DNA of 64,000 bases, taken from assembly GCA_003221005.1 (NCBI GenBank), contig QHTZ01000078.1, positions 1 through 64,000 of the forward strand, read 5' to 3'. The DNA comes from Gemmatimonadota bacterium (GTDB lineage: Bacteria; Gemmatimonadota; Gemmatimonadetes; Gemmatimonadales; GWC2-71-9). The notes below the pieces were generated by a model, which did no database searches, was not told the origin of the DNA, and saw only the letters and a program-made list of their open reading frames with translations. The position numbers and the translations under genes were made by a program. This document shows, piece after piece, positions 6,116-55,211 of this stretch (position 1 is the stretch's first letter; every line of letters begins with the position of its first letter).

Positions 6116-7725
6116 GGCAATTCCGGGAGGTCGAGCGCTCGTATTTCGATCTCCGTTGGCATCTCGACCCCGTCGCCGCGACACAGGCTGGCGTGACCGC
6201 GCACGACGACCGCTTCGGGCGTTTCAGCCCCGCCGCCCTCGCGCCGCACCTCGCGGCGCTCAAGTCTATCTCGGCCGCCCTCGAGGAAGCCGCGGTTCCC
6301 AGCCTCGACGATGAGATCGACCGCACGGCGCTCCTGAACGACATCCGCGTGACGGTGCGACGCCTGGAGCGTGAGCGCCCCCAGGCGAAGAACCCGGGCT
6401 TCTGGCTGTCGCACCTCCTCGGGGGTCTGCATTTCCTGATGCTGCGCCGCGACCGCACGGCGGCGGAGCAAGCACGCGCCGTGGCCAGTAGGCTCGAGGA
6501 CCTGCCGGCGTTTCTGGAGGACGCGCGCACCACGCTCGTCGAGCCGGTGCGGGTGTTCGTCGCGACCGCGTTGCAGGTGATCGAAGGGGGGCTCGACCTC
6601 GTGAAACAGGTCGCGGCGACCGTGGCGGAGCGAGCTCCCGAGCAGGCGGAGCGCCTCGCCGCCGCGACCGACGCGGCCGTAGCCGCCCTCGGCGCTTTCA
6701 CCCGGGACCTGTGGCGGTGGCTCGAGACGGCCTCAGACCACTTCGCCCTGGGAGAGGACGACTTCAACTTCCGGCTCCATTACGAGCACGTGCTGCGCGA
6801 CACGGCGCCCGAGCTGTGGCGCTACGGGCTCCATCTCAAGGAGGAGGTCGAAGCAGACCTCGCGGCGCGCGCCCGGCGGCTGGACGGCCGCGGCCGATGG
6901 CACGATGTCGTGGACCGGTTGCGGGCGGAGCACCCCACGGAAGAGACGCTGGTGGATGCATACGCGCGCGAGATGACGCGCGCGCGCGACTTCGTGGGGC
7001 AGCGCGGTCTCGCGGCCCTGCCCGCGGCGCCGCTCGACGTGGTGCAGACGCCCGCTTTCATGCGGCCCGTGATTCCCTTCGCCGCGTACGACAGCCCGGG
7101 AGCATATTCGACCGACCGCACCGGGTGGTTCTACGTGACCGTCCCGGACGCGCGGCTTCCCGCCGAGCAGCGGGAGCGCATCCTGCGGGACCATTGCCGC
7201 TTCGAGCTTGCGGCCACGGCGCTGCACGAGGGCTACCCCGGCCACCACCTCCAGCTGGTCCACGCCCAGGCCCAGCCCTCACACGTCCGCAAGAACATCT
7301 GGACGCCTCTCACCGTCGAGGGATGGGCGCTGTACTGCGAGGACATGATGGGGGAGGAAGGGTTCTATGCGTCCGAGGAGGAGCTCCTATTCCAGCGCGT
7401 CCACCTGCTGTGGCGCGCGATGCGGATCCTGCTCGACGTAGGTCTGCATACCCGGGGGATGACGTTCCACCAGGCGGTGACGCAGCTCGTCGAGCAGCTG
7501 CACGTGGACCCCGCCAACGCCGAGGCCGAAGTGCGCCGCTACTGCGCGGAGCCCGCCTACCCGCTGTGCTACGCGGTCGGCCGGCGCGAGCTGCTCAAGC
7601 TGCGTGACGACTACCGGGCGTCCAGCGGCGGCGACTTTACGCTGCGGCGCTTCCACGACGCGATTCTCCAGTACGGCGGCCTCCCCGTCACGCTGATTCG
7701 CTGGGGCCTGGGCCTGAATGAATAG
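6106..7725 (+). CDS. DUF885-family protein, probable metallopeptidase
   Basis: A 539-residue DUF885 protein. The conserved core ALHEGYPGHHLQ gives an HExxxxHH-type metal site, and the later EGWALYCEDMM and YPLCYAVGRREL blocks are also family hallmarks. No signal peptide is evident with the ATG 6106 start, so a cytoplasmic location is likely. The start lies inside the end of the preceding gene (10-nt overlap), and the stop overlaps the next start (ATGAATAG), so this is the middle gene of a translationally coupled trio. DUF885 proteins are widespread, and peptidase activity is inferred rather than established here. Confidence 0.85.
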   Translation: MAVGQFREVERSYFDLRWHLDPVAATQAGVTAHDDRFGRFSPAALAPHLAALKSISAALEEAAVPSLDDEIDRTALLNDIRVTVRRLERERPQAKNPGFWLSHLLGGLHFLMLRRDRTAAEQARAVASRLEDLPAFLEDARTTLVEPVRVFVATALQVIEGGLDLVKQVAATVAERAPEQAERLAAATDAAVAALGAFTRDLWRWLETASDHFALGEDDFNFRLHYEHVLRDTAPELWRYGLHLKEEVEADLAARARRLDGRGRWHDVVDRLRAEHPTEETLVDAYAREMTRARDFVGQRGLAALPAAPLDVVQTPAFMRPVIPFAAYDSPGAYSTDRTGWFYVTVPDARLPAEQRERILRDHCRFELAATALHEGYPGHHLQLVHAQAQPSHVRKNIWTPLTVEGWALYCEDMMGEEGFYASEEELLFQRVHLLWRAMRILLDVGLHTRGMTFHQAVTQLVEQLHVDPANAEAEVRRYCAEPAYPLCYAVGRRELLKLRDDYRASSGGDFTLRRFHDAILQYGGLPVTLIRWGLGLNE

Positions 7726-8923
7726 CGCGGCAGCGCCCGCACGCCCCGGGCTGCCGCGCGCCGTCAAGTTGTTCGGGTTGGTCTCCCTCCTGAACGATTT
7801 TGCGAGTGAGATGATCTACCCCTTGCTTCCCGCCTTCGTGACCGGGGTGCTCGGCGCGGGAGCCGGGGCGCTAGGCGCGCTCGACGGGGCGGCGGAGTTC
7901 GCGGCGGCGGGCGTGAAGTGGGGCGCGGGCCGCCTCGCCGACCGGCCGGCGCGCCGGGGCCGCTTGGTGGTGCTGGGCTACGCGATGGCGGTGCTCGTTC
8001 GCCCAGTCATCTCGCTCGCGGGGGCGGCCTGGCAGGTGATCGGACTCCGGGTCGTGGACCGGCTCGGCAAGGGGCTCCGCACGCCGCCGCGCGACGCCCT
8101 GATCGCGGACGCGACGCCCGCCGCGCTCCGGGGCCGCGCGTTCGGGCTGCAGCGCGGGCTCGACCACGCAGGCGCGGTGCTCGGGCCGCTGGTGGCCTGG
8201 TGGCTGCTGGCGCACCGCGGTGCGAACCTGCGGACGGTGATAGCGGCGAGCCTGGTGCCGGGAATCGTAGTGCTGGTGCTGGCCATCTGGGCGGTAAGGG
8301 ACGGTAAGGGGCGGTACGGGGCGGGAGGCGCTGGTCCGCAGGGCGGCCCCTTACCGCCTCCTACCGCCTCTGCCCGCCCCTTACCGCCCGCACTCCTCGC
8401 CATCTCCTTCTTCTATCTCCTCCGCATGCCCGAGACCCTCATCATCCTGCGGTCGCAGCAGCTCGGCGTCGCGGTGGCGGTGGTGCCGCTGTTGTGGGCC
8501 GCGGTGCACGTCGTGAAATCCTCCACGAGCTTCGCGGGTGGTGGGTGGAGCGATCGCTTCGGCCCCGAGCGGACGATGTGGATCGGGTGGGTGTGCTACG
8601 CCGCGCTTGCGGCGGCGATGGCCGCCGCGTCCACCGCGCTCCAGGCGTGGCTGTTGTTTCTGGCGTTGGGCGTCGTGGCGGGACTCACTGAGAGCCCGGA
8701 ACGGGCTCTCGTCGCGCAGTTGGCCGGCGACCGACAGGGGAGCGGCTTCGGCGTGTATCACGGCGTGACGGGACTGGCCGCGCTCGCGGGCGGTGTGGCC
8801 TTGGGTTTGGTGTTTCAGGCGGGCGGCGGCCCGCGTGCCTTCATCGTGAGCGCCGCGCTCGGCGGCTTGCTGGCGGTGATGAGCGCGGCTTCCTACCTGC
8901 GTCGCACAGGGGAGGCCATGTGA
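7718..8923 (+). CDS. MFS transporter, 12-helix, unknown substrate
   Basis: A 401-residue major facilitator. It opens with the conserved LLNDFASEMIYPLLPAF in helix 1 and has RGRAFGLQRGLDHAGAVLGP at helix 5; similar carriers are annotated only as MFS transporters. Hydrophobic segments fit 12 helices. The central cytosolic loop (about residues 191-224) is unusual: it is encoded by an inverted pair of decamer arrays and reads as Gly/Arg-rich then Pro-rich low complexity. ATG 7718 overlaps the DUF885 stop by 8 nt. Convergent with the PD40 genes; a large palindromic structure lies between. Confidence 0.88.
   Translation: MNSAAAPARPGLPRAVKLFGLVSLLNDFASEMIYPLLPAFVTGVLGAGAGALGALDGAAEFAAAGVKWGAGRLADRPARRGRLVVLGYAMAVLVRPVISLAGAAWQVIGLRVVDRLGKGLRTPPRDALIADATPAALRGRAFGLQRGLDHAGAVLGPLVAWWLLAHRGANLRTVIAASLVPGIVVLVLAIWAVRDGKGRYGAGGAGPQGGPLPPPTASARPLPPALLAISFFYLLRMPETLIILRSQQLGVAVAVVPLLWAAVHVVKSSTSFAGGGWSDRFGPERTMWIGWVCYAALAAAMAAASTALQAWLLFLALGVVAGLTESPERALVAQLAGDRQGSGFGVYHGVTGLAALAGGVALGLVFQAGGGPRAFIVSAALGGLLAVMSAASYLRRTGEAM
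8291..8388. repeat. Inverted pair of decamer arrays inside the MFS gene
   Basis: Left arm 8291-8330 holds four 10-nt units of the type gcggtaaggg; right arm 8349-8388 holds four units of the reverse complement (ccttaccgcc); the spacer is 18 nt. The arms can pair into a long hairpin. The element is in frame and replaces the normal central loop with GKGRYGAGGAG followed by PLPPPTASARPLPP. Because the unit is 10 nt, the two arms are read in shifting frames, which explains the change of composition along the loop. Confidence 0.8.
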
Positions 8924-9024: not shown

Positions 9025-9235
9025 GACCGCCCAGGCTGACGAATGTTGCGGCCTTGCGGGGCGATGCGGTAAGGTATGCTCGGCGTCGGGCCGTTATCAA
9101 TTCTCCGCGATAGGGTATATCCTTTCTCTCGACCTTAGTCGTGGCCCGTGCCCTGAAGGGCCGGCTCGGCGCGTCGTGCGTCCTTAAGGACGCGCATCAT
9201 GCCGAGCCGGCGTTTCAACGCACGGGTCGGACGGG
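8924..9235. other. Intergenic region between convergent transcription units
   Basis: A 312-nt gap between the MFS stop and the stop of the last PD40 gene. It holds most of the possible small antisense ORF (8893-9024), a short AT-richer stretch near 9095-9125 (atcaattctccgcgatag), and the nested palindrome at 9145-9226. I see no other coding potential. Confidence 0.6.
9145..9226. terminator. Large nested palindrome, likely bidirectional terminator or REP-like element
   Basis: Three nested pairs of arms: CCCGTG/CACGGG outside (9145-9150, 9221-9226), an 11-nt pair GCCGGCTCGGC/GCCGAGCCGGC (9160-9170, 9201-9211), and an inner 16-bp perfect palindrome GCGTCCTTAAGGACGC (9178-9193). It lies between convergent genes, where a bidirectional terminator is expected, but there is no T-tract on either side. 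It may instead be a dispersed palindromic repeat. Confidence 0.5.
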
Positions 9236-11183: not shown

Positions 11184-12146
11184 TCATGGAACCTGCTTAC
11201 CGCTCGGTGTGCGGGTCGACATGTAGATGTCCGTGCCACCAAAACCGCCGGACCGACTCGACGCGAACAGCAGCGTCCGGCCGTCGCTCGACAGACCGGG
11301 TTGCTGGTCAGCCGCCGCCGAGTTCAGCGGCCCCAGATTCACGGGCGTGGACCAGGGATCGTGGAGGCTGCGACGGGTGGACGTCCAGAGGTCGTTCCCG
11401 CCCAGTCCACCGGGGCGGGTCGAGAAGAAAAAGATCTCCCGGCCATCGGTGCGCAGCGTCGAGCCCTGGTCGGTGGCAGTTGGGTGGCTCAGTTCGGTGA
11501 CCAGTGTCGCGGGGCCACGAGTCTCACCGTCCCGGGTCAGCGGTGCATAGTAGATGTCCGCGGTCCCGCCCGGTGGTGCTCTGTTGAAGTAGAGGTTACC
11601 CGCCCCATCCTCCGCGTTCTGCAAGTACTCCGCCCCAGCCTCGGACCCGGCCGTGTTCACGTCGGCGCCCAGCCCCACCGGGGGTTCCCAGCCGAAGTCG
11701 TCATTCGGGTTGGCTCGGTGAGATATGTAAAGGTCGCTCAGTCCCTGCCCGCCGGGCCGCGTGCTCGTGAAGAAAAGCATGTGTTCGTCGATCGAGAGGC
11801 CGGGTCCGGTCTCGCTGGCTGTCGTATTGACCACTGGTCCGAGGTTCTCGGGCGGCTCCCATGGGCAGTCGGAGCAGGCGCGCCGCGCCACCCAAAGATC
11901 GAACGAGCCCGATCCACCCGCCCGGTCCGAGCCGAAGTAGAGAGTGCGTCCGTCCTTCGAGAGTGTCGGACCCTGCTCGTTGGCGGCAGTATTGATCGTC
12001 GCTCCGAGGTTCCCCGGCGCGGACCACTCGGAGTTGGCGAAGGATTGGGCTTGGATGCGGTACGTGGGCCCTTGGGACTCCGTGACGCAGCCGAGCAGCA
12101 AGGCGAGCGGGGTGAGCGAAGCGAGTATGCGGGGCGCGATTGTCAT
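11184..12146 (-). CDS. PD40-repeat lipoprotein, first of three tandem paralogues
   Basis: A 320-residue lipoprotein (lipobox LLLGCVT) followed by a PD40 beta-propeller. A strong TAGGAGGTT ribosome site precedes ATG 12146. Motifs such as LYFGSDRAGGSGSFDLWV, LFFTSTRPGGQGLSDLYI and LFASSRSGGFGGTDIYM mark the blades. As the first gene of the three-gene unit it probably carries the promoter. The three copies keep the same blade order and the same Cys pair (RACSDCPWE), so they arose by tandem duplication. Confidence 0.88.
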   Translation of the reverse strand: MTIAPRILASLTPLALLLGCVTESQGPTYRIQAQSFANSEWSAPGNLGATINTAANEQGPTLSKDGRTLYFGSDRAGGSGSFDLWVARRACSDCPWEPPENLGPVVNTTASETGPGLSIDEHMLFFTSTRPGGQGLSDLYISHRANPNDDFGWEPPVGLGADVNTAGSEAGAEYLQNAEDGAGNLYFNRAPPGGTADIYYAPLTRDGETRGPATLVTELSHPTATDQGSTLRTDGREIFFFSTRPGGLGGNDLWTSTRRSLHDPWSTPVNLGPLNSAAADQQPGLSSDGRTLLFASSRSGGFGGTDIYMSTRTPSGKQVP

Positions 12147-12315: not shown

Positions 12316-12495
12316 GTTGCCGCTTAACAGCAGCGCGCGACCTGGCCCTTTCGTTCGAAGCAGTCGGCTAGGTATTCGCGCTCGCTCAGCGGAGGACGCC
12401 CCGCCCGCCGACAGTGCTCGACGTAAGCCGCGTAATCGGGCGCGCCGATGATGCGCCGCAGCACGCGCGTGACGCGGGTGGGGAGGGGCTGGGCC

Positions 12496-12523
12496 CCTTC
12501 CCCCTTCCCTCTTCCCCCTTCCC
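12496..12523. repeat. Four-unit heptamer array at the cstA-ybdD junction
   Basis: On the plus strand: ccttccc-ccttccc-tcttccc-ccttccc, 28 nt. It starts next to the cstA stop (12526-12528) and is read through as the N-terminal linker of YbdD. Same length and purine/pyrimidine bias as the arrays at 4571, 21731 and 46809. Confidence 0.75.
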
Positions 12524-17841: not shown

Positions 17842-18686
17842 CGGTCCAGCTGCTTCACGTCTCCGACCCGCATTTCGGCGGCCTCGCCGACGTGGGACAG
17901 GTCGAGGCGCTCGAGGCAATGATCCCGGACCTGCGTCCCGACGCCGTCGTCCTGTCGGGCGATCTCACCCAGCGTGCCCGGCACGGAGAGTTCCAGCGGG
18001 CGCGGGCGTTCGTGAACGTTGCGTCGAAGAGCGCGCCGGTCTACGTCCTCCCCGGCAACCACGACGTAGCCTGGTGGTGGCGCCCGTTTTTCCCATTCGG
18101 GCGCGGAGCGCTGTACCGCAAGTATCGCCGCTATTTCGGTGAGGAGCTCACGCCGACGCTCACCATCCCCGGTGCCGTGATCGCCGGGGCGCTCACGGCG
18201 AACGGAGTCGGCTGGCTTTCCCTGACGTGGCGTCCGCGAGACCTCGCGGTGATGGGCCACCTCCCCAAGCGCGAATTCCTGCGGGTCCAGAAGGTGTTCG
18301 CCGAGGCGCCGCTCGGGTTGGCGCGAGTGCTCGTGGTGCACCACAACGTGCTGCGGGGCGAGATCTCGCGGCGCATGGGCCTCGCGCGCTGGCGCCAGGC
18401 CCAGCGGCGCATCCTGGCCTCGGGAGCCGAGGTGGTGCTGTGTGCGCACGATCACCAAGAGGGTGCGGAGATGTTGGGCGACCGGGTGGTGATCTCGACG
18501 GCCAGCACGGTGTCCACGCGCGCGCGTGGGGGACTGCCCGCGAGCTTCAATTTCGTCACGATTGAGCCGACGGCCGTGCAGATCACGTTCTTTCGCTGGG
18601 ACCGGGAGCGGGGGCGGTTCCAGCCGTCGGACACGTTCGCGTTCGCCCGGGCTACGGGCCGCGCCGCGCCGGCGGCGGTCGGCTGA
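17838..18686 (+). CDS. Calcineurin-like metallophosphoesterase
   Basis: A 282-residue phosphoesterase with all metal-binding motifs: VSDPHFGG (DxH), LSGDLTQRA (GD), PGNHD, a later HHN and CAHDHQ (GHxH-like). The dimetal fold is typical of the icc/CpdA and broader calcineurin group; the substrate (cyclic nucleotide, lipid or other phosphodiester) cannot be told. GTG 17838 overlaps the DUF4139 stop. No signal peptide, so cytoplasmic. It ends 18 nt before the acyl-CoA dehydrogenase gene. Confidence 0.85.
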   Translation: MTVQLLHVSDPHFGGLADVGQVEALEAMIPDLRPDAVVLSGDLTQRARHGEFQRARAFVNVASKSAPVYVLPGNHDVAWWWRPFFPFGRGALYRKYRRYFGEELTPTLTIPGAVIAGALTANGVGWLSLTWRPRDLAVMGHLPKREFLRVQKVFAEAPLGLARVLVVHHNVLRGEISRRMGLARWRQAQRRILASGAEVVLCAHDHQEGAEMLGDRVVISTASTVSTRARGGLPASFNFVTIEPTAVQITFFRWDRERGRFQPSDTFAFARATGRAAPAAVG

Positions 18687-18704: not shown

Positions 18705-19892
18705 ATGGCACTGAGATTCCAGGGCGTCGACTTCTACGACGCCGATGGCCTGCTAACCGAAGAGGAGCGCGCCGTCCGCGACACGGTGCGCGCCTGGGTG
18801 GACGACAACGTCATCCCGGTGATCGGCGAGCACTACGTCGCGGGCAAGTTCCCCACCCACCTCGTTCCCCAAATGGCCGAGCTGGGGCTGTTCGGGGCGA
18901 ACCTCCCCGAGGAGTTCGGCTGCGCGGGCCTCAATAACGTCGCCTACGGGCTGATCATGCAGGAGCTGGAGCGCGGCGATTCCGGGGTGCGCTCGTTCGC
19001 ATCGGTGCAGGGAGCGCTCGTGATGTATCCCATCTACGAATTCGGCAGCGACGAGCAGAAGCGGCGCTGGCTGCCCGAGCTGGCGAGCGGGCGGCGCATC
19101 GGCTGCTTCGGGCTGACCGAGCCCGACTACGGCTCGAACCCCGGTGGGATGATCACGGTCGCGAAGGAGACGAAGGAGGGGTGGGTACTGAACGGGGCCA
19201 AGATGTGGATCACGAACGGCTCGACCGCGGACGTCGCGATCGTGTGGGCCAAGACGGCACGGTTGGACGATCCGGGCTCGATCCGCGGGTTCATCGTCCC
19301 CACCGACGCCAAGGGCTTCGCGGCGAAGGACCAGCAGGGGAAGCTCTCCTTGCGCGCGAGCGACACGAGCGAGCTCGTGCTTCAGGACGTGTGCGTCCCC
19401 AAGGAGGCGCTGCTGCCGAAGTCGGCCGGGCTCAAGTCGCCCCTCATGTGTCTCACGGCCGCGCGCTACGGCATCGCCTGGGGGGCGGTCGGATCCGCGA
19501 TGGCATGCTACGACGAAGCGGTGCGTTACGCCAAGGCGCGGGTCGTGTTCGACCGGCCCATCGGTGGCTTCCAGTTGCAGCAGGCCCGGCTCGTGGAGAT
19601 GCTGACGGAGATCACCAAGGCGCAGCTGCTGTGCCTCCAGCTGGGCCGGCTCAAGGACCAGGGGAAGATGTCGCCGCAGCAGGTCTCGCTCGCCAAGCGC
19701 AACAACGTGAGCATGGCGACCGATGTCGCCCGCGAGAGCCGGCGCCTGCTCGGGGCCAGCGGCATCCTCGCCGAGTATCAGGCGATGCGACATCTCGCGA
19801 ACCTCGAGTCCGTGTACACCTACGAAGGGACACACGACATCCACACGCTCATCCTCGGGCAGGAGATCACGGGGCTGAGCGCATTCAACTGA
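18705..19892 (+). CDS. Acyl-CoA dehydrogenase, glutaryl-CoA dehydrogenase-like
   Basis: FAD enzyme of 395 residues that oxidises an acyl-CoA and passes electrons to ETF. The flavin/substrate motif FGLTEPDYGSNPGGM and the catalytic Glu in VYTYEGTHDIHTLILG are present; both have the form seen in glutaryl-CoA dehydrogenases (lysine and tryptophan breakdown), so that is the most likely substrate class. ATG 18705 follows GGGAAG. The three genes downstream encode the ETF subunits and the ETF dehydrogenase, making a complete acyl-CoA-to-quinone chain. The stop lies in the first unit of an inverted repeat array. Confidence 0.88.
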   Translation: MALRFQGVDFYDADGLLTEEERAVRDTVRAWVDDNVIPVIGEHYVAGKFPTHLVPQMAELGLFGANLPEEFGCAGLNNVAYGLIMQELERGDSGVRSFASVQGALVMYPIYEFGSDEQKRRWLPELASGRRIGCFGLTEPDYGSNPGGMITVAKETKEGWVLNGAKMWITNGSTADVAIVWAKTARLDDPGSIRGFIVPTDAKGFAAKDQQGKLSLRASDTSELVLQDVCVPKEALLPKSAGLKSPLMCLTAARYGIAWGAVGSAMACYDEAVRYAKARVVFDRPIGGFQLQQARLVEMLTEITKAQLLCLQLGRLKDQGKMSPQQVSLAKRNNVSMATDVARESRRLLGASGILAEYQAMRHLANLESVYTYEGTHDIHTLILGQEITGLSAFN

Positions 19893-19990
19893 ATGCGGAG
19901 TGCGGAGTGCGGAATGCGGAATGTAAGTGTAAGCTTCTTGAGGCGAACGACTCTTCACTGAAATTCCGCGTTCCGCATTCCGCGTTCCGC
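19891..19990. repeat. Inverted pair of heptamer arrays between acd and etfB
   Basis: Left arm 19891-19923: gaatgcg-gagtgcg-gagtgcg-gaatgcg-gaatg. Right arm 19963-19990: attccgc-gttccgc-attccgc-gttccgc, the inverted form. The spacer is 39 nt. The pair fills the whole gap between the acyl-CoA dehydrogenase stop and etfB and ends 11 nt before the etfB ATG, where no Shine-Dalgarno site is visible. It can form a long RNA hairpin. Confidence 0.85.
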
Positions 19991-20001
19991 GTTTGCTCGC
20001 G

Positions 20002-55124: not shown

Positions 55125-55211
55125 GCGGGATGCGAGATGCGGGAGGCGAGATGCGTAAGCCGCGCGGCCCCCGGAACAAGCGCATCTCGCATCCCCCATC
55201 TCGCATCCCGC
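55125..55211. repeat. Inverted pair of heptamer arrays between ubiA and ubiX
   Basis: Left arm 55125-55155: gcgggat-gcgagat-gcgggag-gcgagat-gcg. Right arm 55181-55211 is the inverted copy, 29 of 31 positions complementary. The spacer is 25 nt. The left arm starts 3 nt after the ubiA stop; the right arm ends 55 nt before ubiX. Confidence 0.85.

Follow-up and report, generated by a model that had tools for sequence, protein, structure and literature searches.

In Xanthomonas, heptamers of the type GGGAATC (GGGANTN) form about 185 dispersed arrays per genome, mostly of four units (Rehm et al. 2015, PMC4692102). The sections of that report on which we draw describe 70–75 cases per genome in which two arrays lie close together in convergent orientation. 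These arrays are found mostly between genes of the same direction, 7–11% of them are intragenic, and their function is given as unknown. They occupy the same intergenic places in two species, where their length and sequence vary. In Rickettsia, palindromic elements are single sequences of about 150 bp that make up about ten families, according to the part of a recent review used here (PMC10969869). Our literature searches returned no report of elements like the ones below in Gemmatimonadota.

An inverted decamer array in an MFS transporter gene

We analysed a window of 64,000 nucleotides from a soil bacterium of the Gemmatimonadota; by the window we mean the whole stretch of DNA under study. 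A sequence-only reading had placed an inverted decamer array, in frame, in a loop of an MFS transporter, and this was confirmed by a tandem repeat search (TRF), the ORF and Pfam. The features are:

7718..8923, forward strand: MFS transporter gene of 401 aa, host of the array (ORF; Pfam MFS_1, E=1.5e-27)
8289..8328, forward strand: left G-rich arm of the MFS element, units GGGCGGTAAG GGACGGTAAG GGGCGGTACG GGGCGGGAGG
8329..8345, forward strand: spacer of the MFS element, 17 nt, different from the spacers of other elements of the family
8346..8389, forward strand: right C-rich arm of the MFS element, the same decamer reverse-complemented, 4.4 copies
8289..8389, no strand assigned: whole paired MFS element, a potential mRNA or DNA hairpin (z −6.1)

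TRF reported period-10 arrays at 8289-8324 (3.6 copies, GGGCGGTAAG) and 8346-8389 (4.4 copies, GCCCCTTACC), which are reverse complements of each other and lie in frame in the ORF 7718-8923. The element consists of 3.6 copies of the consensus unit GGCGGTAAGG, a spacer, and 4.4 copies of the reverse complement. One decamer fitted to both arms gave 88% (z=14.9 against composition shuffles), and the second-best period reached z=2.6 on the same scale. The RNA hairpin folded at −79.7 kcal/mol; measured by 200 dinucleotide shuffles, this is z=−6.1, and the native loop folded better than all of its 100 synonymous recodings. No Rfam family matched in the window. A simple loop peptide rich in Gly, Arg and Pro, encoded in a GC-rich genome, might invite repetition by chance; but the decamer fit, the folding score and the absence of any pair from the control searches described below refute this explanation, which we give practically no weight.

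The array encodes about residues 192–224, between the two six-helix halves of the transporter. AlphaFold2 assigned a pLDDT below 50 to most of residues 197–219, which lie between a helix at 179–199 and a helix at 224–235. On this model, the array-encoded loop is predicted to be disordered.

A dispersed class of paired arrays and its unit families

The search for similar elements covered about 505 kb of the window's draft genome (roughly 18%) plus 1.4 Mb of relatives. The 505 kb contained 26 strong pairs, a density that is not an unbiased genome average since contigs with known decamer matches were preferred. Two intergenic pairs lie in the window:

19889..19993, no strand assigned: paired heptamer element, GCGGAAT family
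55125..55211, no strand assigned: paired heptamer element, GCGGGAT/GCGAGAT, about 3 nt past a stop codon (z −8.1)

These are the inverted 7-nt loci of the sequence-only reading, at about 19891-19993 and 55125-55211; the inverted 13-nt locus that it had also listed was not found in the window. At 12494-12523 we saw a C-rich heptamer array (CCCCTTC) that stands alone, with no strong partner.

The elements share a form: about four units of 7, 8, 9 or 10 nt, a spacer, and about four reverse-complement units. Median copy numbers per arm were 4.1, 3.9 and 3.6 for periods 7, 8 and 10, respectively. Polarity was nearly uniform, with the G-rich arm first in 44 pairs and the C-rich arm first in 1. Of 75 strong arms, 35 were partnered on the proper side and none on the wrong side; many arms stand alone, without a partner. 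Reversed and complement-only control searches yielded 0 pairs at the same threshold. A G-quadruplex motif was present in just 25 of the 75 strong arms, which rules it out as the common denominator.

The periods of 48 pairs were 7 (31 pairs), 8 (6), 9 (2) and 10 (9), so that multiples of three were rare and the spread was far from even because period 7 dominates. The idea that units are always 3n+1 nt long did not survive this tabulation, as periods 8 and 9 occur, even at the MFS site itself. The unevenness that went with the idea did hold: periods 7 and 10 account for 40 of the 48 pairs.

Eleven of the 26 pairs (about 40%) lie inside predicted genes, one of them (L046) probably upstream of its gene; 92% of the sequence is coding, and genes are depleted of pairs (p=1e-10). 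The coding sites are mostly interdomain linkers, and the genes on either side of an intergenic pair mostly run in the same direction. The proposal that such arrays occur inside genes with the frame kept was borne out, and their places there are mostly disordered or interdomain linkers. In a Muproteobacteria MAG contig we noticed inverted AGCCTAT heptamers and ACAGGATTA nonamers (L173:245-326, 6986 and 11192-11284), so elements of this kind may extend well beyond Gemmatimonadota.

Unit families are scattered through the genome, in gaps and in genes. Matches of the GGCGGTANGG type numbered 81 in the window's genome (controls, 2 and 4). The GGCGGCGAAG type had 53, 32, 43 and 87 matches in the four tested genomes that carry this unit at the MFS site, and 5–31 elsewhere. 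GGATTGC is absent from the window's genome and has 104 matches in G076 and 77 in G063; for GGGACGN, the window's genome has 50 matches and several other genomes have none. An identical unit at different loci was found in 5 of 19 comparisons within a genome, versus 7 of 196 between genomes.

Elements of one family do not have a spacer in common. Partner arms resembled each other no more than arms taken from different elements of the family did (p=0.36 and 0.78), which argues against arms copied from each other by template switching; a pooled GCGGAAT set gave p=0.007, but this pool mixes subfamilies. Short tandem repeats commonly arise by strand slippage. A purely local process, in which slippage makes the tandem units and template switching in a hairpin makes the matching arms, would explain the inverted arms and fits the dominance of period 7, which is found in other bacteria as well (slippage is discussed in the part of PMC4692102 used here). 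However, partner arms are no closer to each other than to arms elsewhere, the loci of one genome share units, and slippage of 7, 8 or 10 nt breaks the frame. We consider such a process, acting alone, very unlikely.

Within the decamer, conservation is 95–99% in the core GGCGG and about 55% at positions 8 and 10, regardless of codon position. Conservation follows the position in the unit, not the position in the codon, and the constraint acts at the nucleotide level. In the left arm of the MFS element, TAA would fall in frame only in the third unit, which reads TAC there; the third unit at this site in L010 has TAT instead of the in-frame TAA. TGC was changed to TTC mostly where TGC is in frame (Fisher p=0.009, small counts). 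Inside genes, harmful codons are mutated away: in-frame TAA and, probably, TGC.

Units at fixed sites are replaced between species

The MFS transporter had matches in 56 of the 61 genomes searched. An inverted array is present at the MFS site in all readable close orthologues (66–79% identity, about 20 species, mostly MAGs titled Gemmatimonadetes). A MAG titled Chloroflexi (L144, VBDV01000007.1) has a 75%-identical MFS-type orthologue with a like array; its contig or label may be misassigned. The units at this site are, species by species, GGCGGTAAGG, GGCGGTAGAG, GGCGGCGAAG, GGACGGAGAC, GGTTGGTGGA, GACGGGGAAG and others, each in both arms, as are GGCGGCAGG (9 nt) and GGCGGTCG (8 nt). The period is mostly 10 nt, with 9 in L161 and 8 in L014 and L162. 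A change of unit runs through every unit of both arms, and each species tends to have its own; units differ even within a closely placed trio (G061, G066 and G077). On a 20-species tree built from MFS plus GlcF with the arrays removed, we counted at least 14 unit changes at MFS, and at least 17 unit changes and at least 6 changes of period at GlcF. These figures are approximate, since the labels of the units were assigned by eye on the basis of the best fits. At one position, different species carry different units; the replacement usually affects both arms and sometimes brings a new period.

The array had been taken for a new arrival in the MFS gene. No insertion is visible: the loop has a mean of 56.6 residues in distant orthologues, most of them without an array, versus 57.8 in the array-bearing clade. 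A fresh insertion into a loop that is equally long with and without an array was rejected. Some distant orthologues (L025/L167, Lake Baikal) have heptamer arrays in the MFS loop.

The sites persist across genera at the four coding loci that were tested: MFS, NadE, GlcF and asparaginase. In GlcF the array linker lies between Fer4 and CCG, and this single site has periods 7, 8 and 10 in different species. Selection for one loop peptide was rejected, because the peptide differs according to whether heptamers, octamers or decamers occupy this GlcF site. The NadE linker lies between CN_hydrolase and NAD_synthase and carries heptamers: GGGACGN, GGGAAAC, GGGAGCG, GGGATGC and others, depending on the species. 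A further array linker separates the two domains of a tandem aldehyde dehydrogenase. A 2-oxoglutarate-dehydrogenase-like gene, so labelled from its sequence and not from a Pfam search (C120:37157-40780), has GGGACGN pairs at two linkers (L041:17323-17405 and 18113-18198).

The asparaginase II site is an exception to the linker placement and lies within a domain. It is empty in four species and filled in twelve, where the insert adds 54 to 93 nt and its length is divisible by 3 in every case. The inserts inside genes keep the frame. The claim that such elements can arrive in genes was upheld at this locus, where clean empty sites stand beside in-frame inserts, but was not supported at the MFS site. 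The empty sites are too diverged for a target-site duplication to be visible.

The NadE linker of L194 (genome G069) has non-complementary arms. Its left arm is GGGAAAC, as in its relatives, and its right arm is CAATCCG in 4.5 copies, of a family with 21 matches in that genome. Only the right arm was swapped; therefore the two arms can be replaced separately, and this linker is a possible intermediate of arm replacement. In four other genomes (L198-L201; G071, G074, G075 and G081), NadE has the right-hand array alone or none; these proteins lack the left-arm segment and are about 8 residues shorter at this point. The NadE spacer encodes a motif, (K)FDPA(T)NG, that is found in armless orthologues too.

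Might the hairpins be kept because they work? Selection could hold a hairpin at domain and cistron boundaries as functional punctuation, for example as a translation pause, an mRNA stability element or an insulation element, leaving the sequence free as long as the arms pair. Pairing is indeed retained while units change, and coding sites are mostly interdomain linkers, with intergenic ones mostly between same-direction genes. Folding of the MFS loop points the same way: compared with synonymous recodings, loops of the array clade folded with a mean z of −2.9 and 14 of 23 beat all 100 recodings, whereas distant orthologues averaged −0.18 and neighbouring windows −0.25 to −1.08. Yet tolerance alone predicts the same places, and the empty asparaginase sites, the one-armed or armless NadE sites and the non-complementary arms of L194 do not fit; nor is tandem repetition needed for pairing, and many arms are single. 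We regard selected punctuation as unlikely. We also doubt its clade-wide version, in which boundary hairpins would be selected with their form and polarity conserved while a species-specific repeat 'dialect' is periodically rewritten by copying.

Proposed refreshment of hairpin sites and known systems

Could whole palindromes be mobile instead? An element of the MITE or Rickettsia palindromic type, inserted whole and in frame by a transposase acting in trans, would account for the dispersal of a single family over numerous unrelated genes and gaps, and for the clean empty and filled asparaginase sites, always in frame. But spacers differ within a family, the NadE spacer motif is also found in armless orthologues, arms are not inherited as a matched pair, and the same site holds unrelated units and periods. 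We found two Y1_Tnp genes of the REP-associated type, at L136:6891-7275 (C27:17898-18239) and L129:4380-4777 (C66:6398-6736). Each is flanked by its own palindromes, unlike the array arms in sequence, with decamer arrays 1.1–2.5 kb away, which rules out a Y1/RAYT transposase as the direct driver. Overall, a mobile palindrome is distinctly improbable. The palindrome of the second Y1_Tnp gene has a copy inside a nearby gene (L129:4968-5007), apparently in frame. In the window, a palindrome at 9145-9225 (CCCGTGCCCTGAAGGGCCGGCTCGGC ... GCCGAGCCGGCGTTTCAACGCACGGG) resembles the REP-like palindromes at L136:6690-6794 and 7293-7402, which flank a Y1_Tnp gene.

Taken together, these results lead us to favor, with a probability of about 0.55, the reading that the MFS feature is one copy of a dispersed hairpin class with long-lived sites, whose arms are refreshed from genome-wide pools of units and are tolerated, possibly used. 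Other arrays of the same genome would be the source from which arms are copied, and so refreshed or swapped, through ectopic conversion or a transposition-like route that may act on one arm at a time or on the pair. Sites would survive where linkers and gaps tolerate arrays, or where a hairpin is mildly useful. We infer these steps over long times, because most of the compared species differ by roughly 10–30% in protein sequence, and no donor event between close strains was seen. Slow in-place homogenization could likewise produce the stepwise series seen among similar units (TAAG to TAGAG to CGAAG). Searches for Y1_Tnp and RVT_1 identified no copying enzyme, and no target-site duplication was identified. 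A reverse transcriptase working as a telomerase-like copier was rejected: the genome has no RVT_1 match (assembly 94% complete).

Sites that outlast their own sequence are an unusual finding for bacteria and suggest a process that carries copies of short repeat words round these genomes and into conserved metabolic genes with the frame unbroken. One linker followed through about 20 species, with many units and with empty sites, forms a natural series for studying which agent copies the repeats and whether translation is affected by hairpins placed at domain boundaries. The system also carries a warning, namely that some linker peptides of this clade are largely by-products of DNA-level processes.

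Several known systems share single traits with these elements. REP/REPIN sequences with Y1 (RAYT-type) transposases are likewise dispersed hairpins, mostly outside genes, but they are without tandem-unit arms (PMC3733652, PMC3116915). The tandem repeats of Borgs also change fast, occur in gaps and genes and encode disordered segments (PMC9879509); they are direct head-to-tail repeats only, with perfect units that are a multiple of 3 in ORFs, whereas ours are inverted and imperfect, with unit lengths that are mostly not divisible by 3 (periods 7, 8 and 10 in ORFs). The TAACTGA heptamers of Beggiatoaceae form dispersed arrays of two to six units as well, but there one sequence is repeated in direct orientation, most often upstream of starts, and a single case is inverted (PMC4679880). 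Rickettsia palindromic elements resemble ours in being dispersed, palindromic and in frame in unrelated genes, compatibly with protein function. In such an element, homology within a family would run along its full length with the spacer, whereas here spacers differ and the arms are tandem arrays; the part of the review used here reports neither tandem-unit arms nor unit replacement at fixed sites (PMC10969869).

The convergent heptamer pairs of Xanthomonas, as far as the sections of PMC4692102 used here describe them, are the closest known kind. Both are dispersed arrays of about four G-rich units, and both have convergent polarity with the G-rich arm first (44:1 here). Unlike Xanthomonas with its one 7-nt unit, a single clade here holds several families with periods 7, 8, 9 and 10, and the MFS element of the window has period 10 instead of the GGGA-type 7-nt unit. 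About 90% of the Xanthomonas arrays are intergenic, whereas about 40% of our pairs are intragenic, mostly in linkers and in frame. The G-quadruplex motif that is central in Xanthomonas occurs here in the minority of strong arms given above. Replacement of units at fixed sites across genera is seen here, and we found no such description in those sections. The elements described here seem to be of the same kind as the Xanthomonas pairs, extended by other periods, by location in genes and by unit replacement at fixed sites.
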